Assembly: GCF_900187385.1 (NCBI RefSeq)
Contig: NZ_FYEY01000001.1
Location: 2,542,001-2,606,000, forward strand
From: Streptomyces sp. 2114.4
GTDB taxonomy: Bacteria; Actinomycetota; Actinomycetes; Streptomycetales; Streptomycetaceae
Length of the DNA stretch: 64,000 nt
Reading direction: 5' to 3'
In this document: positions 6,680-17,263 of the stretch, piece by piece
How positions within the stretch are numbered: the stretch's first letter is position 1
Layout: every line of letters starts with the position of its first letter
Position numbers and translations under genes: made by a program
Notes under the pieces: generated by a model
What the model was told of the DNA's origin: nothing
Seen by the model: only the letters and a program-made list of their open reading frames with translations
Databases searched by the model: none

Positions 6680-9600
6680 TTACGCCACGCCCTCCGCCTG
6701 CGCCGCCGACGACTCCTCGGCGGCAGCGGTCTTCTTGGCCGCCGCCTTCTTGGCCGTCGCCTTCTTGGCGGTGGTCTTCTTCGCCGTGGCCTTCTTGGCG
6801 GTGGTGGTCTTCTTCGCCGCCGCCTTCTTGGCCGTGGTCTTCTTCGCCGCGGTCTTCTTGGCGGTGGCCTTCTTGGCCGCCGTCTTCTTCGCGGTCTTCT
6901 TGGCCGCGGGCTCCGCCTCCGCCCCGGTGCCCTCGGCGGGCTCCGCGACCCCGGCCGGCTCCGGCTCGCCGACCGGCTCGGCCGACGGCGCCGGCTCGGC
7001 GGGCACCACGATCTCGGCGGCCTCACCGGCGGCCTTGGGGGCGCCCGCCGGAGCGGTCACCTTCCGGGTCGCGCGACGGCGCGGACGGGCCGGTGCGGGC
7101 TCCGCGGCCGGCGCCTCGGCGACCGGCTCGGGGGCCTGCTCCGGCTCGGCTGCCGGGGCCGGCTCGGCCGGCACCACGATCTCGGCGGCCTCACCGGCGG
7201 CCTTGGGGGCGCCCGCCGGAGCGGACACCTTCCGGCTCGCCCGGCGGCGGCCACGGCCGCGTCCGGCGGCCGCCTCGGCCTCGGCCGGGCTGCCGAACCA
7301 CTCGTCGGTCCCCTCCACCGCGGGCTGCAGCTCGGCCTCCGTCACGGGGGCGGGCTCCAGCTCGGGGGCAGCGGCCTCCGCGGCACCGGCCTCGGGGGCG
7401 GGCTCGACGGCCTCGGCCTCGTGGACGTGCGGCTCGGCCTGGGTGCCCTTGCCCTTCTTCTTGCGCTTGCCACCGCCGCCGGCCGCCGTCGGCTGGTCCA
7501 TGTGGACGATGACGCCACGGCCGTTGCAGTGCACACACGACTCGGAGAAGGACTCCAGCAGGCCCTGACCGACCCGCTTACGGGTCATCTGGACCAGGCC
7601 GAGCGAGGTGACCTCGGCGACCTGGTGCTTCGTACGGTCCCGGCCCAGGCACTCCAGCATCCGCCGCAGCACCAGGTCCCGGTTGGACTCCAGCACCATG
7701 TCGATGAAGTCGATGACGACGATGCCGCCGAGGTCGCGCAGCCGCAGCTGGCGCACGATCTCCTCGGCCGCCTCCAGGTTGTTCCTGGTGACGGTCTCCT
7801 CGAGATTGCCGCCCTGACCGGTGAACTTCCCGGTGTTGACGTCGATCACGACCATCGCTTCGGTCTTGTCGATCACCAGCGAACCACCGCTGGGCAGCCA
7901 GACCTTGCGGTCCAGCGCCTTCATCAGCTGCTCGTCGATGCGGTACGTCGCGAAGACGTCGACGTCCGAAGTCCACTTCTGCAGCCGGTCGGTGAGATCC
8001 GGGGCGACGTGCGCGACATAGCCGTGGATGGTCTGCCACGCGTCGTCACCGCTGACGATGACCTTGGAGAAGTCCTCGTTGAAGATGTCGCGGACCACCC
8101 GGACGGTCATGTCCGGCTCGCCGTAGAGGAGCGACGGGGAGCTGGTGGAAGCTGCCTTCGCCTTCTTCTGGATCTCTTCCCACTGCGCCTGCAGCCGCTG
8201 GACGTCGCGCGCCAGCTCGTCCTCGCTCGCGCCCTCGGCGGCGGTGCGCACGATGACGCCCGCGTCCTCGGGGACGATCTTCTTGAGGATCTGCTTCAGC
8301 CGCGCCCGCTCGGTGTCGGGGAGCTTACGGCTGATACCGGTCATCGAGCCCTCGGGCACGTAGACCAGGTAGCGGCCGGGGAGCGAGACCTGGCTGGTGA
8401 GCCGGGCGCCCTTGTGGCCGATCGGGTCCTTGGTGACCTGCACCAGCACGGACTGGCCGGACTTCAGCGCGGTCTCGATGCGGCGCGGGCCGTTGGACAT
8501 GCCCAGCGCCTCGAAGTTGACCTCACCGGCGTACAGCACGGCGTTGCGGCCCTTGCCGATGTCGACGAAGGCGGCCTCCATCGAGGGCAGGACGTTCTGC
8601 ACCTTGCCGAGGTAGACATTGCCGACGTACGAGGTCGCCTGCTCCTTGTTGACGAAGTGCTCGACGAGCACGTTGTCCTCGAGGACGCCGATCTGCGTGC
8701 GCTCGCCGCTCTGGCGGACGACCATCACCCGCTCGACGGCCTCGCGGCGGGCCAGGAACTCCGCCTCGGTGATGATCGGCACCCGGCGGCGGCCCTGCTC
8801 GCGGCCCTCCCGGCGGCGCTGCTTCTTGGCCTCCAGGCGCGTCGATCCCTTGATCGACTGCACCTCGTCGGCGCTGGTGGACTCGTCCTTCTTGCGGGGC
8901 TCGCGGACCTTGACGACCGTGCGCTCCGGGTCGTCGGTGCCGGTGAACCCGTCCTCGCCGGCGTCACCGGTGCGACGGCGGCGACGACGGCGACGGCGGC
9001 TGCTGCTGGAGCCGCCGCCCGGCTGCTCCTCGGCCTCCTCCTCCGCCTCGGGCTGCTCGTCGTCCTCCTCGGGCTCGGCCCGCTCGCTCTCGCGCTCCTC
9101 GGCGCCGCGGTCCTCGGCGGACTGCTCCTCGGCGCCCTCGGCGGCCTCACCGCGACGGCGGCGACGGCCACCACGGCGGCGGCGGCGCGAGGGGCGGCCG
9201 TCGGACTCGTCCTCGCCCTGGCCGCTCACGGCCTGCTCGGTCTCCGGTTCGGCCGCCGCTACGGCCTCCTCGGCCGCCGGCTCCTCGACGGGGGCGGCGG
9301 ACACCTGCTCGGGCTCGGCCGGGGCACCACGGCGGCGACGGCGGCGCGCACCGGCGGGCTGCTCCTCCACGGCCGGCTCGGCGGCGGTCTCCTCCTGGCG
9401 CGCCGCGGCAGCGGCGGCGGCCGCGGTCTCCGGCGTCTGGAACATCGGCTCGGTGAAGACCGGTGCCTGGAAGACGGCCGTCGGGGGCCGCTGCGCCCGG
9501 CGGCGGCCGCGCTGCGGCGCCTCCTGCGCGGGCTCCTCCTCGGCGCGGGGCGCCTCGGCGGCGGGCTCGGCGGCACGCTCGCCCCGGCGGCGTGCGCGGC

Positions 9601-10519
9601 GGCGGGGGGCCTCGGCGGTCTCGTCCTGGGCGGTCCCGGCGTCGGCGGTCCCGGCGGTCCCGGCCTCGGCGGCCGGAGTCTGCTCGGCCTCCGCCTCCGC
9701 GGCCTGCGGCGCACCCGCGGGGGCGGTGGCCTTACGGGTGGCACGGCGGCGGGCGCGGGCGGGCCCCGCGTCCTCGGCGGCGGCCGGGGTCTCCTCGGCG
9801 CTCTCGGCCGGGGCGGCCGGTGCCACGGCCTCGGCGGCGGGCGCGGCGCTCTCCCCGACCGCCTCGCCGGCGTCGCTCACCTGCGGGGCTCCGGCCGGAG
9901 CGGTGACCTTACGGGTCGCCCGGCGGCGGGTACGGCGCGGCGCGGCGTCCTCGGTCTCCTCGGCGGCGGCCGGGGCGGGCTGCGCGGCGGGCGCGGGCTC
10001 TTCGGCGGCGGCCGGGGCGGAGGGCGCGGGCTCTTCGGCGGCGGGCTCCTGACCGGCCTCGTGCTGCGGGGCACCGGCCGGCGCGGACACCTTGCGGGTC
10101 GCCCGGCGGCGGCCGCGGCGCGGCGCGGCGTCCTCGGCCTGCGGCGTCTCGGCGGCGGCCGCGGGCGTCTCGGCGGCGGCTTCGGCCGGTTCGTCACCGG
10201 CCGGCTGCGGGGCTCCGGCGGGAGAGGTGACCTTACGGGTCGCGCGGCGGCGGGAGCGGGCCGGCTTGGCCTCGTCCCCGGTGGTCACCGCGGAGGCGGC
10301 GGCCTCCTCGCCGAGGGCCGGACCGGCCTCGGCAGCGGCGGTGGCCTCGGTGCTCACCACCTCGGCTGCGGCGGCGCCACCGGCCACCGGAGGACCGGCC
10401 GGCCGGGAGGCCGCACGGCGCCGGCGGCGCGGCGGCAGCGTGTCGCTGGGTGAGTGATTGTCGTCGGCACCACGGTCCTGGGACTGCGTGGCGCGGGTGG
10501 GCTCAATGGGCTCGAGCAT
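6680..10519 (-). CDS. rne: ribonuclease E/G (RNase ES type)
   Basis: This endoribonuclease starts mRNA decay and matures rRNA and tRNA. At 1279 residues it has the actinobacterial layout, with the catalytic core in the middle. Residues 1-600 are low-complexity, rich in Ala/Glu/Pro and basic blocks. The S1-like domain begins near residue 605 (GERTQIGVLEDNVLVEHFVN). The two metal-binding aspartates lie in VVIDVNTGKF (about 889) and VVIDFIDM (about 938), and the zinc-link CVHC is near 994. A lysine/alanine tail (AKKTTAKKA-type repeats) ends the protein. The motif RRRATRKVTAPAGAP recurs six times, four before and two after the core. The ATG has GGGAGA at 10529-10534. It follows the TIGR03936 gene after 220 nt and ends in its own terminator. 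Confidence 0.95.
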   Translation of the reverse strand: MLEPIEPTRATQSQDRGADDNHSPSDTLPPRRRRRAASRPAGPPVAGGAAAAEVVSTEATAAAEAGPALGEEAAASAVTTGDEAKPARSRRRATRKVTSPAGAPQPAGDEPAEAAAETPAAAAETPQAEDAAPRRGRRRATRKVSAPAGAPQHEAGQEPAAEEPAPSAPAAAEEPAPAAQPAPAAAEETEDAAPRRTRRRATRKVTAPAGAPQVSDAGEAVGESAAPAAEAVAPAAPAESAEETPAAAEDAGPARARRRATRKATAPAGAPQAAEAEAEQTPAAEAGTAGTADAGTAQDETAEAPRRRARRRGERAAEPAAEAPRAEEEPAQEAPQRGRRRAQRPPTAVFQAPVFTEPMFQTPETAAAAAAAARQEETAAEPAVEEQPAGARRRRRRGAPAEPEQVSAAPVEEPAAEEAVAAAEPETEQAVSGQGEDESDGRPSRRRRRGGRRRRRGEAAEGAEEQSAEDRGAEERESERAEPEEDDEQPEAEEEAEEQPGGGSSSSRRRRRRRRRTGDAGEDGFTGTDDPERTVVKVREPRKKDESTSADEVQSIKGSTRLEAKKQRRREGREQGRRRVPIITEAEFLARREAVERVMVVRQSGERTQIGVLEDNVLVEHFVNKEQATSYVGNVYLGKVQNVLPSMEAAFVDIGKGRNAVLYAGEVNFEALGMSNGPRRIETALKSGQSVLVQVTKDPIGHKGARLTSQVSLPGRYLVYVPEGSMTGISRKLPDTERARLKQILKKIVPEDAGVIVRTAAEGASEDELARDVQRLQAQWEEIQKKAKAASTSSPSLLYGEPDMTVRVVRDIFNEDFSKVIVSGDDAWQTIHGYVAHVAPDLTDRLQKWTSDVDVFATYRIDEQLMKALDRKVWLPSGGSLVIDKTEAMVVIDVNTGKFTGQGGNLEETVTRNNLEAAEEIVRQLRLRDLGGIVVIDFIDMVLESNRDLVLRRMLECLGRDRTKHQVAEVTSLGLVQMTRKRVGQGLLESFSESCVHCNGRGVIVHMDQPTAAGGGGKRKKKGKGTQAEPHVHEAEAVEPAPEAGAAEAAAPELEPAPVTEAELQPAVEGTDEWFGSPAEAEAAAGRGRGRRRASRKVSAPAGAPKAAGEAAEIVVPAEPAPAAEPEQAPEPVAEAPAAEPAPARPRRRATRKVTAPAGAPKAAGEAAEIVVPAEPAPSAEPVGEPEPAGVAEPAEGTGAEAEPAAKKTAKKTAAKKATAKKTAAKKTTAKKAAAKKTTTAKKATAKKTTAKKATAKKAAAKKTAAAEESSAAQAEGVA

Positions 10520-10739: not shown

Positions 10740-11540
10740 CTACGCAGTACCGTCCCCGGCTGCCGGGGAGGCCCCGCTCGTCACCTTCGCGGCACTCAGC
10801 CCGGCGGCCGTGGGTGGGGCGGCCGTGGCAGCGTCGCGGTCGGGCTCAAGCGGGTCGGTCACCGCGCCGGTCTCCTCATCGAGCAGCCCCTGCGCCAGCC
10901 TGGTCACCGCTGCGGGGACCGGCGGCGCCAGGTCGGCCGTAGCTCGGAGGCCGGACAGGACGTCGTCGGGTCGAACGGCAGGTGTCAGATGCCGAACAAC
11001 CAGCCGCAGTATCGCACAGGCTTTGCCGTCGGGCCTATCGCCGGCGTGACCGGTGGCTTCCAGACGCGTCACCGCGGCCCGTGCGTCAAAGGTCCGCATG
11101 CCGTTTTTCGTCCGCCGCTCGACCAGCACCTCGTCCGCGGCGAGGAACGCCTCGACCGCGCGACCGGCCTCCCGGGGCTCGACCCCGTCGAGCCGGAGCT
11201 CCCACACCGAGGCCTGGAGCCGGTCGGCCAGGCCGCTGGTGCGGGCCTCGACCGCGTCGGTCACATCGAGCCCGTCCGGCAGCGACGCGTCGAGCAGGGT
11301 GCGCAGCGTGTCCGGATCGCGGTGCTCGGTGAGCTGGATCTCCAGGTACTCGGCCTCGCTGCCCGTACCGGTCGGGGCGGCGTTGGCGTACGACACCTTG
11401 GGGTGCGGGGTGAAGCCCGCCGAATAGGCCATGGGGACCTCGGCGCGGCGCAGCGCCCGCTCGAAAGCGCGCTGGAAGTCGCGGTGGCTGGTGAACCGGA
11501 GGCGGCCGCGCTTGGTGTAGCGCAGTCGGATGCGCTGCAC
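10740..11540 (-). CDS. TIGR03936-family radical SAM-linked protein (DUF2344)
   Basis: The 266-residue protein begins MQRIRLRYTKRGRLRFTSH and contains HRDFQRAFERALRRAEVP and GFTPHPKVSYANAAP, hallmarks of the family. It has no radical SAM cysteines of its own. In many Firmicutes this domain is fused to, or sits next to, the TIGR03960 radical SAM protein, which is here the third gene upstream (13.4-15.4 kb). The co-occurrence with RNase E/G and L21/L27 is widely conserved, which points to RNA or ribosome modification, but the reaction is not known to me. The last 25 or so residues are low-complexity Ala/Pro. Confidence 0.9.
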   Translation of the reverse strand: MQRIRLRYTKRGRLRFTSHRDFQRAFERALRRAEVPMAYSAGFTPHPKVSYANAAPTGTGSEAEYLEIQLTEHRDPDTLRTLLDASLPDGLDVTDAVEARTSGLADRLQASVWELRLDGVEPREAGRAVEAFLAADEVLVERRTKNGMRTFDARAAVTRLEATGHAGDRPDGKACAILRLVVRHLTPAVRPDDVLSGLRATADLAPPVPAAVTRLAQGLLDEETGAVTDPLEPDRDAATAAPPTAAGLSAAKVTSGASPAAGDGTA

Positions 11541-11588
11541 CGCCGGTGCGGGCGGCGGGCCTTCGGGCTGTCGCTTGCCCAGTGTCGT

Positions 11589-12737
11589 TCAGTCCTTCGT
11601 GAGTGCGGTCGTACTGCTACCTAGAGTACGTGTGCCGGGGGCTCCCGGTTCCCGCCGGGGCTCGGCAGCGGTGGCCGGCCGGGGCTCGGCGGGGGCGCCG
11701 AACAGTGCCCGCCGGATCTCCCTGCGGGTCTGCCGCACGGTCGCGCGGGCGGTGCGCAGGGCCTGCCGGACCGGCCGCCAGATGCCGTCCCGGATGCCGT
11801 GCCCGAGAGGGGTGAGCACCGTGCGGTACACCCACCGCAGCGGCTCGACGAGGACCCACCGCAGCACCGCGGCGAGAAACCGGCCAAGGGCCCTGGAGAT
11901 GATCCCCGCGGCCCGCCAGCAGTGCCCGAGCGCCGCTCCCGTCTCGCGCACCACCGCCGTCACCACGGCGGCCGACAGCCGCCCGGCGGGCACCAGCACA
12001 TACCGCCACAGGGTGACCAGCGGCACGACCACGAGCCACCGCACGAGCGTGGCGAGAACGGTGCCGAGGCCGCGCACCAGCCAGGCGAGGCCCCGTCCGG
12101 CCGGTGTCAGCACATGGACGTACAGCCACTGGGCGGGCACGACGACGAGCAGGCGGACCAGCCATGCCAGGACCGCGCCGGTCCCCCGGCCGACGGGCGC
12201 CAGCACATACCGCCACAGCGCCACCCACGGCCACACGAACAACGCGCGGCCCACCCACCGCAGGGCCGCGCCCAGTCCGCGCAGCAGCCAGGCGAGGCCG
12301 TGCCCCACCGGGGTCAGTACGTGGGTGTACAGCCACTGCGCGGGGAGCACGAGCAGCTGCCGCACCAGCCACGCCACCGCCCTGCCGGTCCCCCGGCCGA
12401 CCGGGGCGAGCACGGCGCGCCACAGCCACCCCAGCGGGGCGACGACCAGCGTGCGCCAGGTCCACCCGAGCGGGAGCACGACGAGGGTGCGCCAGGCCCA
12501 GGCCAGGGGGGCGAGGACGAGGGTGCGCCACAGCCGGGCGAGGCCGCGGCCGAGGGGGCGCAGCACGCTCCGGTCGACGGCCCGGCCGGCGGCGGTCAGC
12601 GCGTCCCACACCAGGCGCACCGGCACCACGAGGACCAGCACCACGATCCGTACCGGAATACGGACCACTTGGGTCACACAGCCCTCGCCCGGCGCGTAAC
12701 GGGCGGGCACCCGCCGCTCGTTGTCGGTGGGCTCCAT
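11589..12737 (-). CDS. repeat-built hydrophobic W/R-rich protein of unknown function
   Basis: I do not recognise a family. The 382 residues start at the ATG 12735-12737 (MEPTDNERRVP); a longer frame upstream merely overlaps the acetyltransferase. After an ordinary N-terminus, about residues 20-330 are hydrophobic segments punctuated by Trp, Arg and the motif L-(A/T/V/R)-P-(V/L/A)-G-(R/H)-G, which returns about seven times. A unit of about 69 residues (LAPVGRGTG ... VPAQWLYVHV ... LWRYV) is present twice with high identity. The C-terminus (about 50 residues) is Ala/Pro/Arg-rich and soluble. The segments look like amphipathic or membrane-lying helices more than classical spanning helices. It lies between the two radical SAM-linked genes on the same strand, 48 nt before the TIGR03936 gene. 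Real gene: likely, from third-position G/C and repeat conservation. Confidence 0.7.
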   Translation of the reverse strand: MEPTDNERRVPARYAPGEGCVTQVVRIPVRIVVLVLVVPVRLVWDALTAAGRAVDRSVLRPLGRGLARLWRTLVLAPLAWAWRTLVVLPLGWTWRTLVVAPLGWLWRAVLAPVGRGTGRAVAWLVRQLLVLPAQWLYTHVLTPVGHGLAWLLRGLGAALRWVGRALFVWPWVALWRYVLAPVGRGTGAVLAWLVRLLVVVPAQWLYVHVLTPAGRGLAWLVRGLGTVLATLVRWLVVVPLVTLWRYVLVPAGRLSAAVVTAVVRETGAALGHCWRAAGIISRALGRFLAAVLRWVLVEPLRWVYRTVLTPLGHGIRDGIWRPVRQALRTARATVRQTRREIRRALFGAPAEPRPATAAEPRREPGAPGTRTLGSSTTALTKD

Positions 12738-12789: not shown

Positions 12790-13362
12790 TCAGACGCGCC
12801 GGTGCGGCTGCTCTCCGGCGGCGGGCGCGGCCGCGTGGATCCAGTAGCGCAGCTTCTCCCCCCGCTGGTCCTCGAAGACCCCGCCGCAGGCCTCGATGAC
12901 CTTACGCGAGCCGGTGTTGGTGTGGTCGCAGGTGACCAGCACCGGGTCGATGCCCAGCTCGTGATGGGCGAAGGGCAGTGCGGCGCGCAGCATCGCGGTG
13001 GCGTGGCCACGGCGGCGGGCACCGGGGCGTACGCCATAGCCGATGTGGCCGCCGTAGTGGAGGAGTTCATCGGTGAGGCGGTGGCGGAAGGTGACCCGTC
13101 CCAGATAGCTGCCGTCCGCCACCCACCACCGGGTGGTCGTGGGGACCACCCCGTCGGCGCGTACCTCACCCGGGGCGCCGCTGATCGCGTCGACGTACTC
13201 CGCGAACCCCTCCACGGTCGGCCAGCGGGTGGCCCAAGTCCGCAGCTCGCGGGCGAGGTTGGAGTGCGGTACCTGCTCGGCGCCGTCGGCGCGGAACTCG
13301 TCCATCGCGGCGAGGAAGGAGGCATGGACGCGGGCGGTGGGGGCGATGAGCTGCGGTGACAT
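12790..13362 (-). CDS. GNAT family N-acetyltransferase
   Basis: The 190-residue protein starts at ATG 13360-13362 (MSPQLIAPTARVHASFLAAM). The acetyl-CoA binding motif is GYGVRPGARRRGHATAML, giving the R-x-x-G-x-A signature, followed by VLVTCDHTNTGSRKVIEACGG, typical of single-domain GNATs that acetylate small amines or protein N-termini. The substrate cannot be told. No clear ribosome site precedes the ATG. It lies 77 nt after the TIGR03960 gene. Confidence 0.88.
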   Translation of the reverse strand: MSPQLIAPTARVHASFLAAMDEFRADGAEQVPHSNLARELRTWATRWPTVEGFAEYVDAISGAPGEVRADGVVPTTTRWWVADGSYLGRVTFRHRLTDELLHYGGHIGYGVRPGARRRGHATAMLRAALPFAHHELGIDPVLVTCDHTNTGSRKVIEACGGVFEDQRGEKLRYWIHAAAPAAGEQPHRRV

Positions 13363-13439: not shown

Positions 13440-15365
13440 CTACTTGACGACGGTCAGGGGCAGCAGCTTCTTGCCGGTGGGGCCGATCTGGATGTCGAGG
13501 TCGAGCTGCGGGCAGACGCCGCAGTCGAAGCACGGAGTCCAGCGGCAGTCCTCGACCTCGGTCTCGTCGAGCGCGTCCTGCCAGTCCTCCCAGAGCCAGT
13601 CCTTGTCGAGGCCGGAGTCCAAGTGGTCCCAGGGCAGGACCTCTTCGTACTCCCGCTCGCGGGTGGTGTACCAGGCGACGTCGACGCCGAAGCCGGGCAG
13701 CGTCTCCTCGGCGGCCTTCATCCAGCGGTCGTACGAGAAGTGCTCGCGCCAGCCGTCGAAGCGGCCGCCGCCCTCGTAGACGGCGCGGATGACCGAGCCG
13801 ACGCGGCGGTCGCCGCGCGAGAGCAGGCCCTCGACGATGCCGGGCTTGCCGTCGTGGTAGCGGAAGCCGATGGAGCGGCCGTACTTCTTGTCGCCGCGGA
13901 TCTTGTCCCGGAGCTTTTCGAGACGGGCGTCCGTCTCCTCCGCCGACAGCTGCGGCGCCCACTGGAAGGGGGTGTGCGGCTTGGGGACGAAGCCGCCGAT
14001 GGAGACCGTGCAGCGGATGTCGTTCTGTCCGGAGACCTTGCGGCCCTCGGCGATGACCTTGACCGCCATGTCGCCGATCTGGAGCACGTCCTCATCGGTC
14101 TCGGTCGGCAGACCGCACATGAAGTACAGCTTCACCTGCCGCCAGCCGTTGCCGTAGGCCGTGGAGACGGTCCTGATCAGGTCCTCTTCGGAGACCATCT
14201 TGTTGATGACCTTGCGCATCCGCTCGGAGCCGCCCTCGGGCGCGAAGGTCAGACCGGAGCGACGGCCGTTGCGCGTCAGCTCGTTGGCAAGATCGACGTT
14301 GAAGGCGTCCACCCGGGTCGAGGGCAGCGACAGGCCGATCTTGTCTTCCTCGTACCGGTCGGCGAGCCCCTTGGCGATGTCGCCGATCTCGGTGTGGTCC
14401 GCGGAGGACAGCGACAGCAGGCCGACCTCCTCGAATCCCGTGGCCTTCAGGCCCTTGTCCACCATGTCGCCGATGCCGGTGATGCTTCGCTCCCGCACGG
14501 GGCGCGTGATCATGCCGGCCTGGCAGAAACGGCAGCCGCGGGTGCAGCCACGGAAGATCTCGACGGACATCCGCTCGTGGACGGTCTCGGCCAGGGGGAC
14601 GAGCGGCTGCTTGGGGTAGGGCCACTCGTCCAGGTCCATGACGGTGTGCTTGGACACCCGCCACGGGACGCCGGAGCGGTTCGGCACGACACGGGAGATC
14701 CGCCCGTCGGCCAGGTATTCGACGTCGTAGAACTTGGGGACGTAGACGCTGCCGGTCTTCGCCAGGCGGAACAGCAGCTCATCCCGGCCGCCGGGCCGGT
14801 CCTCGGCCTTCCAGGCGCGGATGATCTCGGTGATCTCCAGCACCGCCTGCTCGCCGTCGCCCACGACCGCGCAGTCCAGGAAGTCCGCGATCGGCTCGGG
14901 GTTGAAGGCCGCATGGCCGCCCGCCAGGACGATCGGGTGGTCCTCCGTGCGGTCCTTGGCCTCCATCGGGATACCGGCGAGGTCCAGGGCGGTGAGGAGG
15001 TTGGTGTAGCCCAGCTCGGTCGAGAAGGAGACACCGAGCACGTCGAAGGCGCCGACGGGGCGGTGCGCGTCGACCGTGAACTGCGGGACGTGGTGCTCAC
15101 GCATCAGCGCTTCGAGGTCCGGCCACACGCTGTACGTGCGCTCGGCCAGCACGCCCTCGCGTTCGTTGAGGACCTCGTAGAGGATCATGACGCCCTGGTT
15201 GGGCAGACCGACCTCGTAGGCGTCCGGGTACATGAGCGACCACCGCACATCACAGGAGTCCCAGTCCTTGACGGTGGAGTTCAGCTCACCGCCGACGTAC
15301 TGAATGGGCTTCTGCACATGCGGGAGCAGGGCCTCGAGCTGCGGGAAGACCGACTCGGCAGACAT
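13440..15365 (-). CDS. TIGR03960-family B12-binding/radical SAM protein
   Basis: At 641 residues it has an N-terminal B12-binding-like region (LMYPDAYEVGLPNQGVMILY; VLAGGHAAFNPEPIADF) and a central radical SAM domain with the cluster motif CTRGCRFC in EIFRGCTRGCRFCQAGMI. It works with the TIGR03936 protein, encoded 1.9 kb further along the same strand. The pair is conserved next to rne/rplU and is thought to modify RNA or ribosomal components, though the product is not established as far as I know. The C-terminus contains a CFDCGVC cluster that may hold a second metal site. Confidence 0.92.
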   Translation of the reverse strand: MSAESVFPQLEALLPHVQKPIQYVGGELNSTVKDWDSCDVRWSLMYPDAYEVGLPNQGVMILYEVLNEREGVLAERTYSVWPDLEALMREHHVPQFTVDAHRPVGAFDVLGVSFSTELGYTNLLTALDLAGIPMEAKDRTEDHPIVLAGGHAAFNPEPIADFLDCAVVGDGEQAVLEITEIIRAWKAEDRPGGRDELLFRLAKTGSVYVPKFYDVEYLADGRISRVVPNRSGVPWRVSKHTVMDLDEWPYPKQPLVPLAETVHERMSVEIFRGCTRGCRFCQAGMITRPVRERSITGIGDMVDKGLKATGFEEVGLLSLSSADHTEIGDIAKGLADRYEEDKIGLSLPSTRVDAFNVDLANELTRNGRRSGLTFAPEGGSERMRKVINKMVSEEDLIRTVSTAYGNGWRQVKLYFMCGLPTETDEDVLQIGDMAVKVIAEGRKVSGQNDIRCTVSIGGFVPKPHTPFQWAPQLSAEETDARLEKLRDKIRGDKKYGRSIGFRYHDGKPGIVEGLLSRGDRRVGSVIRAVYEGGGRFDGWREHFSYDRWMKAAEETLPGFGVDVAWYTTREREYEEVLPWDHLDSGLDKDWLWEDWQDALDETEVEDCRWTPCFDCGVCPQLDLDIQIGPTGKKLLPLTVVK

Positions 15366-15559: not shown

Positions 15560-17263
15560 TCACGGCCGGAGCGCGGCCCGGTGCTTGCGCCGGGAGGCCT
15601 TCTTCCACCGGCGTGGCAGCTCCCGCTCCCGGTCCGCCGCACGGGCCTCCTCACGCCCGTGGAGCAGACCGAAGGTGAAGCCGCCCTCACCGGCCCGCTG
15701 TGCCTGGGTGGCCAGCTCGCGCAGCGCGCCGCGCGCCACCACGCTGTCCTGGTGGTCGCCCAGCAGCTGCTGCACCCGCTTGATCCGCTTGGCGAACTTC
15801 TTCGCCGGCCGGCCGAGCGCCGGACGGGCGGCCTCCGCCGCGTACCGCGTCCGCTTGGCGGCCTTGCGGGCGCCGTGCAGCGCCTCGTCCCGCGCCTGCC
15901 CGGCCGGGGCCGCCAGCGCGGCCTCCACCCGGCGGGCCAGCCGCCGGTAGTCCTTCAGCACGGCGCCGGCCACCACGTCGGGCGCCGGCCGGTCCGCGGC
16001 CGGGCGCAGCGGCGGCTCCTGAAGGAGGGCGTGCAGGGTCTTCAGCAGCTCCAGATAGCGGGGTCCGTCCAAGACGGAGAGCACTTCCCTGCGCGCGTCG
16101 GCGCGGCGCCGCTCGGACCAGATGCGCAGCCGGGCGGCCACCGGGCCGAGCCGCAGCGTGCGGGGCACCTCGGCCAGCGCCTGCTGCAGCCGCGCGGTCA
16201 GCACCTCGCGGTCCCGGTCCACCCCCAGCTCCGCCGCCAGCCACTGGAGCTCCAGGCCGATGGGCCGGGTGACGGCGCGGTCGAGCACCTTCGTGTACGA
16301 GCGGAAGGCGCTGCGCAGCCGGCGGGTGGCGACCCTCATCCGGTGTACCGAGTCGGGCAGATCGCGCCGTACCGCCGGATCCAGCTCGATGATCACCCGT
16401 ACCTGCTCGCGGACGTACCGGAGCACCACGTCTCCGGCGGTGGGTTCCTTCTTCTTGCCGGCCGTGGTCTTGTTGTTCCCGGCCGTGGTCTTGTTGTTCC
16501 CGGCCGTGGTCTTGTTGTTCCCGGCCGTGGTCTTGTTGTTCCCGGCCGTGGCCTTGTTCTTCGCCGTCATGGCCTTGCCTCCGCGTTTGCCGGAGCCTTG
16601 GGGGCGGGACGTTTCCCCTCCCGCGCCGGGACGTGCGGGGCGCTCGCGCGCCAGGCCCGTCTCGGCGAGTGCCCGCGCCAGCTTCGACTCCGCTGAGGCG
16701 GGGCGCGCCCCGGCCGCGACCAGGGCCCGGCCGACCTCGTCCAGCAACCCGCTGTCGCCGCCCCCGAGCAGTTCCACCTCGATCTCGCGCCACCGGGCCC
16801 CGCCCGCGCCGCTCTTGGCGGACTTCCCCGCCCGCTGTGCGTGCACCTCGTCCACCGCCAGCTCCGCGAGCGGTGCGCCCCCGGCATCGTGCAGCACCCG
16901 GACCGTGCGCCGCGTCCGCAGCCGGATGAGGGGCACCAGTTCCTCCTCCAGCACCCGTGACCGGACGAGCGCGGTCAGCTCCGGGGGCGGTGTGTCGGAC
17001 AGCGGCGCCCGCACTTCGTCCCGGACGCCCGGCGCAACCGGCAGCTTCAGGTGCCAGCCCGCGTCCCTGCCGCCGGTGCGTCTGCGCAGCGTGAGGGCGT
17101 CGGCGGCGAGGCGCTGGTCAGGAGTGTCGTAGTAGCGGGCGTCCAGCTCCTCGACACCCGATTCCGCCACGGTGGCGACCCGGCCGACGCCGGCCAGGTC
17201 GGGCAGCCGCGCACCGTCGTCGATCTCGTACTTCCGTTCGATTTCCCGCACGGTGTCCGCCAT
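15560..17263 (-). CDS. CYTH and CHAD domain protein
   Basis: The 567 residues carry an N-terminal CYTH triphosphate-tunnel domain (about 1-210: EIERKYEIDD gives the ExExK signature, then the acidic/basic strands of the tunnel) and a C-terminal CHAD helical domain (about 280-520: VHRMRVATRRLRSAF, HGARKAAKRTRYAAE). CYTH binds triphosphates and CHAD binds polyphosphate, so a role in polyphosphate metabolism or localisation is likely. The linker holds four perfect NNKTTAG repeats encoded by a 21-bp DNA repeat. TAGCCT lies 6 nt before the ATG with no ribosome site, so the mRNA may be leaderless. Confidence 0.9.
   Translation of the reverse strand: MADTVREIERKYEIDDGARLPDLAGVGRVATVAESGVEELDARYYDTPDQRLAADALTLRRRTGGRDAGWHLKLPVAPGVRDEVRAPLSDTPPPELTALVRSRVLEEELVPLIRLRTRRTVRVLHDAGGAPLAELAVDEVHAQRAGKSAKSGAGGARWREIEVELLGGGDSGLLDEVGRALVAAGARPASAESKLARALAETGLARERPARPGAGGETSRPQGSGKRGGKAMTAKNKATAGNNKTTAGNNKTTAGNNKTTAGNNKTTAGKKKEPTAGDVVLRYVREQVRVIIELDPAVRRDLPDSVHRMRVATRRLRSAFRSYTKVLDRAVTRPIGLELQWLAAELGVDRDREVLTARLQQALAEVPRTLRLGPVAARLRIWSERRRADARREVLSVLDGPRYLELLKTLHALLQEPPLRPAADRPAPDVVAGAVLKDYRRLARRVEAALAAPAGQARDEALHGARKAAKRTRYAAEAARPALGRPAKKFAKRIKRVQQLLGDHQDSVVARGALRELATQAQRAGEGGFTFGLLHGREEARAADRERELPRRWKKASRRKHRAALRP
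16460..16543 (-). repeat. four perfect 21-bp tandem repeats inside the CYTH-CHAD gene
   Basis: Four identical 21-nt units (GGCCGTGGTCTTGTTGTTCCC less its last base is the core) run head to tail, with a fifth diverged copy to about 16560. On the coding strand each gives Gly-Asn-Asn-Lys-Thr-Thr-Ala. Identity at silent positions shows recent expansion, so copy number may vary between strains. Confidence 0.95.

Follow-up and report, generated by a model that had tools for sequence, protein, structure and literature searches.

A widespread Streptomyces protein family patterned as a very long amphipathic helix that is re-phased at its prolines

Giant amphipathic helices are known mainly from animal proteins, and the design is best known from the coats of fat droplets. 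In apolipoprotein A-I and the exchangeable apolipoproteins, amphipathic helices are punctuated by prolines and turn the same face to lipid, and the value for an 11-mer helix is 98.2 degrees per residue. Plin4, a droplet-coating protein, is described (PMC5889406) as consisting of 29 ungapped 33-mers of weak hydrophobicity, with three positive and two negative charges per 33-mer, and its longer pieces bind better. On the bacterial side, MLDS of Rhodococcus is described as a lipid-surface protein that also binds nucleic acid (PMC5504291). Among the literature matches listed, none concerned a bacterial giant amphipathic helix by title or abstract. Here we describe a widespread, uncharacterised Streptomyces family with an Arg/Trp-rich giant-helix design and re-phasing prolines which, if our reading is true, would give Streptomyces a first candidate for an extended coat on lipid surfaces.

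The window, i.e. the whole 64,000-nucleotide stretch of Streptomyces DNA that was analysed, contains one member of this family (Table 1). The open reading frame is a real gene, with a G+C content by codon position (0.78/0.58/0.92) that is compatible with a coding frame. Relatives were found encoded at 456 loci in a scan of genome contigs, and the best 80, all titled Streptomyces, were retained; 40 pairs with more than 84% identity showed purifying selection, with a median dN/dS of 0.21 (range 0.12-0.48). A sequence-only reading of the window had recognised no family, which agrees with our searches, since the window protein matched no Pfam or NCBIfam family even at E 10 and no PDB sequence, and 50 family members searched against Pfam reached a best E of 0.052 with no match to a curated model. 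PDB profile matches at E ~0.6 (ABC exporters, an ATP synthase subunit) were at chance level and were discarded, and a literature search under the locus name SCO2601 found nothing.

Table 1. Positions of the features discussed, in window coordinates
Feature	Position	Strand	Basis
Amphipathic-helix protein gene	11589..12737	-	ORF ATG to TGA, 382 aa plus stop
Conserved N-terminal motif, residues 19-47	12597..12683	-	Alignments A1 (20 rows) and A2 (50 rows)
Predicted long helix 1, residues 20-179	12201..12680	-	AlphaFold2; ten-residue blocks mostly pLDDT 78-92, 69 near start, 66 at end
Predicted long helix 2, residues 188-346	11700..12176	-	AlphaFold2; ten-residue blocks 73-89 from residue 191, 52 at preceding break
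First 69-residue unit, residues 109-177	12207..12413	-	48/69 identical to second unit
Second 69-residue unit, residues 178-246	12000..12206	-	48/69 identical to first unit
C-terminal motif RRALFG, residues 342-347	11697..11714	-	Pattern in homologues
DNA element CACGTACTCTAGGTAGCAGTACGACC within last codons	11607..11632	-	Near-invariant third codon positions
AAGGA, probable ribosome-binding site of TIGR03936 gene, in last codons of gene	11593..11597	-	Sequence
TIGR03936 (DUF2344, radical SAM-associated) gene	10740..11582	-	NCBIfam TIGR03936, E 1e-55
RNase E/G family gene, downstream, same direction	6680..10519	-	NCBIfam TIGR00757, E 1.5e-152
GNAT acetyltransferase gene	12790..13362	-	Pfam Acetyltransf_3, E 2.5e-14; start codon chosen by the analysts
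TIGR03960 B12-binding radical SAM gene	13440..15365	-	NCBIfam, E 7e-212

The description of the protein as repeat-built and rich in Trp and Arg held: its 330-residue core is both basic (net charge +37) and hydrophobic (GRAVY 0.73; mean hydrophobicity 0.71), with 43 Arg and 24 Trp against 6 acidic residues, and its runs free of R/K/D/E/H do not exceed 12 residues. The seven or so L-x-P-x-G-(R/H)-G turns that had been counted correspond to six exact copies and a seventh reading LVPAGRL. Internal duplication is clear from the two 69-residue units; the term near-identical was, however, too strong for units that also share only 147 of 207 positions in their DNA. Comparison across strains, proposed with that reading, revealed that the repeat number does vary, with 6-13 proline motifs in the 80 homologues, which are 333-492 aa long. 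Together with two same-genus short forms (L023 and L024, frames of 211 and 220 aa), they would offer a natural length series for tests of the tuning of membrane binding by length and proline spacing. Among 1139 proline-to-proline distances from 76 homologues, 11 was by far the most frequent (489), followed by 16 (153), 38 (112), 12 (87), 22 (76) and 45 (71).

Both faces of a helix can be read from this core. In the window protein, R/K/H residues recur with a peak at 95.5 degrees per residue and LIVFM residues with a peak at 94.5, and their peak powers of 12.8 and 12.1 lie just above the maxima of 300 shuffles (11.7 and 11.5, respectively). As a modest control, the power for charged residues was 12.0 in the core versus 8.7 in the best other frame among 135 window frames of at least 200 aa. 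Trp taken alone had no helical period beyond its shuffles in the window protein, so that, of the regular Arg and Trp reported earlier, the basic residues are confirmed and regular Trp is unsupported for this protein by itself. The same basic period recurs throughout the family: in 76/76 homologues the R/K/H signal is strongest between 94 and 96 degrees per residue, which gives one coherent polar face over hundreds of residues, and in 74/76 the LIVFM signal is, too; four of the 80 homologues were missed by the periodicity script and recovered later, giving 81 sequences with the window protein, and L075, the frame of which ends before its reported match end, was retained in the pooled counts. 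Across these 81 sequences the overall period was 95.4 degrees per residue and the LIVFM phase lay 209 degrees (SD 9) from the R/K/H phase. An 11/3 periodicity in ungapped 11-mers was absent, given this period and proline spacings of 11, 12, 16, 22, 38, 45 and others. Proline-free segments (n=597) peaked at 99.5 degrees, near the normal alpha-helix value, and the lag from that value therefore comes with the prolines.

The pattern shifts by about one residue per proline, well beyond controls. In a pooled fit, the rotation came out at 99 degrees for both R/K/H and LIVFM and the shift per proline at -75 degrees for R/K/H and -80 degrees for LIVFM; with these shifts, the pooled R/K/H power rose from 10.8 to 26.4 (maximum of 30 random placements, 11.4) and the LIVFM power from 12.7 to 23.6. 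The shift is carried by both proline classes, and the best two-class fit for LIVFM used unequal shifts of -105 and -60 degrees (power 25.6). A hinge at one proline type alone was rejected, with R/K/H powers of 11.2 or 8.9 versus 26.4, and LIVFM powers of 6.1 or 14.4 versus 22.0 for equal shifts. Sequence by sequence, the real prolines beat all random placements (60 for each homologue, 1000 for the window protein) in 74/81 cases for R/K/H and 68/81 for LIVFM, and in 71-76 of the 81 they outscored every one of 40 placements with permuted spacings or at random hydrophobic residues, which leaves 5-13 sequences in which they do not win outright over the controls. For the window protein alone, 1-3 of 1000 control placements reached the observed value. 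Once the prolines were deleted in silico, the moment over 54 residues at 100 degrees was 0.323, up from 0.139 (maximum of 500 random deletions, 0.275); with the prolines left in, a single angle of 95.4 degrees already yielded 0.266. Taken singly, six relatives from other families and the two short same-genus forms did no better under the proline rule than under the best of 100 random placements; in the two relatives from family f3, each of which has 11 prolines, the plain stripe is strong and lies at 98-99 degrees.

On the proline-corrected pooled wheel, the share of R/K was 28-41% between -30 and 30 degrees and fell to about 0% at 150-180 degrees, LIVFM reached 74% at 180-210 degrees and Pro lay at 60-150 degrees. 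The mean direction fell at 0-150 degrees for Trp and at 210-360 degrees for Gly in 81/81 of these related sequences, and the Trp wheel of the window protein alone was blurred under the pooled parameters. That Arg, hydrophobics, Trp, Gly and Pro each occupy a sector of their own suggests, at the level of sequence, a flat-lying coat with an Arg track.

Our preferred reading, which we regard as fairly probable, is a monotopic protein that coats or scaffolds a lipid surface by means of flat-lying amphipathic helix. About 320 residues of alpha-helix would rest against the cell membrane from the cytosolic side, or against lipid droplets, with the V/L-rich face sunk into lipid and the Arg stripe towards the head groups and the cytosol. 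The prolines, often 11 and 16 residues apart, would re-register the pattern to keep the same face down, by one-residue skips or by restarts of shorter helices. With Trp on one shoulder of the wheel and Gly on the other throughout the family, neighbouring helices might pack side by side, and as the repeat number varies, the footprint would depend on length. The gene, its conservation, the two-faced pattern and the re-phasing at prolines are seen in the sequences and the long helices are predicted; that the protein binds lipid, packs laterally and serves as a coat or scaffold is what we infer.

The family shares its principle with Plin4 or apolipoprotein A-I and differs in being strongly basic and rich in Arg and Trp. 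With Plin4 (PMC5889406) it has in common a very long, repeat-built, single-faced amphipathic helix. Unlike Plin4, the Streptomyces protein has prolines often 11 and 16 apart, strong hydrophobicity, a Trp-rich composition and a polar face that is mostly Arg. Features of the perilipin family, namely the PAT domain and the C-terminal four-helix bundle, were not found, as there is no Pfam match and long helices are predicted over residues 20-346. The proline-punctuated amphipathic helices of constant face that characterise apolipoprotein A-I are found here, too, in that the pattern is re-phased at prolines with the same face kept; unlike apolipoprotein A-I, the Streptomyces protein has no Pfam match, is one-sidedly basic and turns by 95.4 degrees per residue.

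In one version of the preferred reading, to which we give somewhat less than an even chance, the protein would be a chain of short helices of the apolipoprotein A-I kind, each starting at a proline with the same face down, and would contain no long unbroken helix. A model restarting the helix at each proline fitted about as well as one skipping a residue (R/K/H, 21.9, or 25.2 with two phases, versus 26.4; LIVFM, 30.0 versus 23.6). The sequence is compatible with one unbroken helix and with a series of short ones begun anew at the prolines; what it shows is a helix face set relative to each proline, whether or not the helix is interrupted there. Short helices are also in line with a table note in the Plin4 paper (PMC5889406), which describes a helix broken by seven kink-inducing prolines, probably that of apolipoprotein A-I. 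A literature search on prolines, skip residues and pi-bulges in amphipathic membrane helices found largely nothing. AlphaFold2, in contrast, continued the predicted helix through 17 of the 18 prolines of residues 20-346.

The structure prediction that had been proposed as a check was carried out with 50 sequences and drew two long helices of ~160 residues each (mean pLDDT 76, pTM 0.33). A homologue of 333 residues (L062) was likewise modelled with helices at 19-138 and 144-301 (mean pLDDT 80, pTM 0.37). Along the helices the models carry moderate to high confidence, but their overall shape is predicted with low confidence, and long helices are what AlphaFold2 tends to produce from sequences of this kind. 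A Foldseek search with the model of the window protein returned no PDB match.

These models bear on a further alternative, a multi-pass or re-entrant membrane protein, in which the L-x-P-x-G-R-G turns would serve as loops, the hydrophobic segments would cross the membrane wholly or halfway and their arginines would snorkel. The hydrophobic core speaks for it, as do charge-free (R/K/D/E/H) stretches of at least 18 residues in 71/81 sequences, proline-free in 44/81, because of which homologues could span the membrane. The window protein is not among these 71, and with no uncharged run above 12 residues, ordinary membrane spans were not seen in it. The single Arg face along the core in 76/76 homologues and the long helices of both AlphaFold2 models also argue against spans, and we consider this alternative unlikely. 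The earlier view of segments that look more like interface-lying than membrane helices is supported for the window protein by the Arg stripe, the short charge-free runs and the long predicted helices.

A coat of lipid droplets (triacylglycerol bodies), i.e. a bacterial perilipin-like protein, would share its physical design with the giant helix of Plin4 (PMC5889406), and Rhodococcus is described as having a droplet protein, MLDS, that binds DNA as well (PMC5504291); the comparison with MLDS applies only if RNA or DNA is bound by the Arg stripe. Plin4, however, is weakly hydrophobic with mixed charges, and the strong hydrophobicity and net charge of the core rather favour an anionic bilayer over a droplet, which makes the droplet coat distinctly unlikely.

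The gene is not universal in the genus. It was matched at E 0.001 in 45 of 63 different same-genus genomes, drawn from a single-sequence search (37) and a profile search (28) combined; among the 45, G005 has only partial matches spread over different frames, so its copy may be broken, and the copy in G017 runs off the contig end. All 18 genomes without a match keep TIGR03936, and no intact copy was found in the 1.5 kb upstream of it by motif scan by eye or by tblastn with eight homologues. One of them (G025, locus L142, about 1000-1375) retains a frame-broken remnant without an intact copy, two (L147 and L149) match in tblastn only over the tail, and L146 has a tail-like stretch by eye. Of the two outcomes named at the outset as refuting that reading, a known family hit was not obtained, and loss of the frame in close relatives was seen in part: the 80 retained loci keep a long open frame, but 18/63 genomes have no match. 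On a TIGR03936 tree including 16 of the 18 loci without the gene, nine presence changes are needed; only two are forced by starred branches and several absent rows are long branches, so that recurrent loss is likely but unproven. Outside the genus, relatives occur in families f3 and f20 (three genomes each) and, on weaker evidence for a shared design, in one genome of a third family, f6 (E 2e-5). The relative in G048 (f3) lies beyond a galactokinase gene downstream of TIGR03960, and that in G081 (f6) near the ESX genes eccE and eccB.

In all 80 retained loci, TIGR03936 follows the gene in the same direction; within the fetched flank, TIGR03960 lies upstream in 41/80, RNase E downstream in 66/80 and the GNAT gene in 11/80. 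The neighbourhood, called very conserved, is so for the neighbours and not for the gene itself. Its placement between two RNA-modification partner genes was not borne out as worded, as the neighbours are TIGR03960 and TIGR03936, and in the window the GNAT gene intervenes before the radical SAM gene. Literature searches found nothing on TIGR03960 and, by title and abstract, nothing on the function of DUF2344. The neighbouring genes suggest a possible link to RNA metabolism. The S. coelicolor RNase ES gene can be disrupted with small effect, according to a published account, and, the gene being missing from 18/63 genomes as well, its role is likely to be supporting rather than essential.

That the protein anchors RNase ES or other RNA-decay components, with the Arg stripe or the C-terminal part bringing RNase E or RNA to the membrane, is improbable: in E. 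coli, RNase E is attached to the inner membrane according to a published source, the gene order is as described and an Arg stripe could bind RNA, but gene order is the whole of the direct evidence, TIGR03936 persists in the 18 genomes without the gene, and G106, G334 and G274 carry the relative and TIGR03936 on different contigs (two of these assemblies being fragmented). An extended form of the lipid-surface coat, in which a helix of nearly 50 nm (about 325 residues at 0.15 nm each) would lie on the membrane with one-residue skips at prolines, pack Trp-to-Gly into a sheet and hold RNA or the RNase ES machinery on its Arg track, is highly doubtful.

The N-terminal motif has invariant G19, C20, R26, P28, P39, R41, W44 and D45 in A1 (20 of 29 distinct genes from the single-sequence genome search; those with no start found, truncated, broken or very distant were excluded) and A2 (the window protein and 49 of the 80 loci; A3 comprises 49/80 loci); distant relatives have a similar motif without the Cys. 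The Gly-Cys pair (residues 19-20; window 12678-12683, -) is invariant in the aligned Streptomyces sequences and stands before the first helix, with acylation or a disulfide as candidate uses. Near the C-terminus, a pattern scan found R.{1,3}[LM][LFVG]{1,2}G in 73/76 homologues, and distant relatives end LFG-like.

Beyond this motif, the last codons (RTLGSSTTALTKD) encode a protein tail that looks conserved, and their third positions are nearly invariant, too, as counted over 57 loci that had been selected for sharing this tail in protein. They contain a 26-base element, CACGTACTCT(A/T)GGTAGCAGTACGACC, which has an imperfect inverted repeat and lies about 48 bases before a CTG that occupies the probable TIGR03936 start site in 99/99 Streptomyces loci. 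The core of the element occurs within 260 bases in 67/81 loci with the gene and 6/18 without it, and in four of the latter (L137, L144, L147, L148) it stands 45-49 bases before the CTG. TIGR03936 probably starts at this codon (CTG 11582; 11580-11582, -) behind AAGGA and not at GTG 11540. Since the third positions are near-invariant, AAGGA lies inside the tail and the element is kept in some loci without the gene, the conserved tail is probably mainly DNA, a cis element of the downstream TIGR03936 gene; the 26-base element may be a promoter, an operator or an RNA hairpin.

In the spacer before TIGR03936, loci L036, L038 and L041 have G+C-rich possible stem-loops (CCCCGCC..CGCGGGG), and an Rfam search of L038, 4200-5200, gave no match. 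Upstream of the radical SAM gene, the protein at window 15560-17263 (-) contains several tandem TAGNNKT units and has no NCBIfam match. A 1262-aa ORF overlapping the RNase E gene on the opposite strand is probably a G+C artefact. The RNase E protein itself carries long Lys/Ala repeats at its C-terminus, where a histone H1-like model matches below its cut-off.
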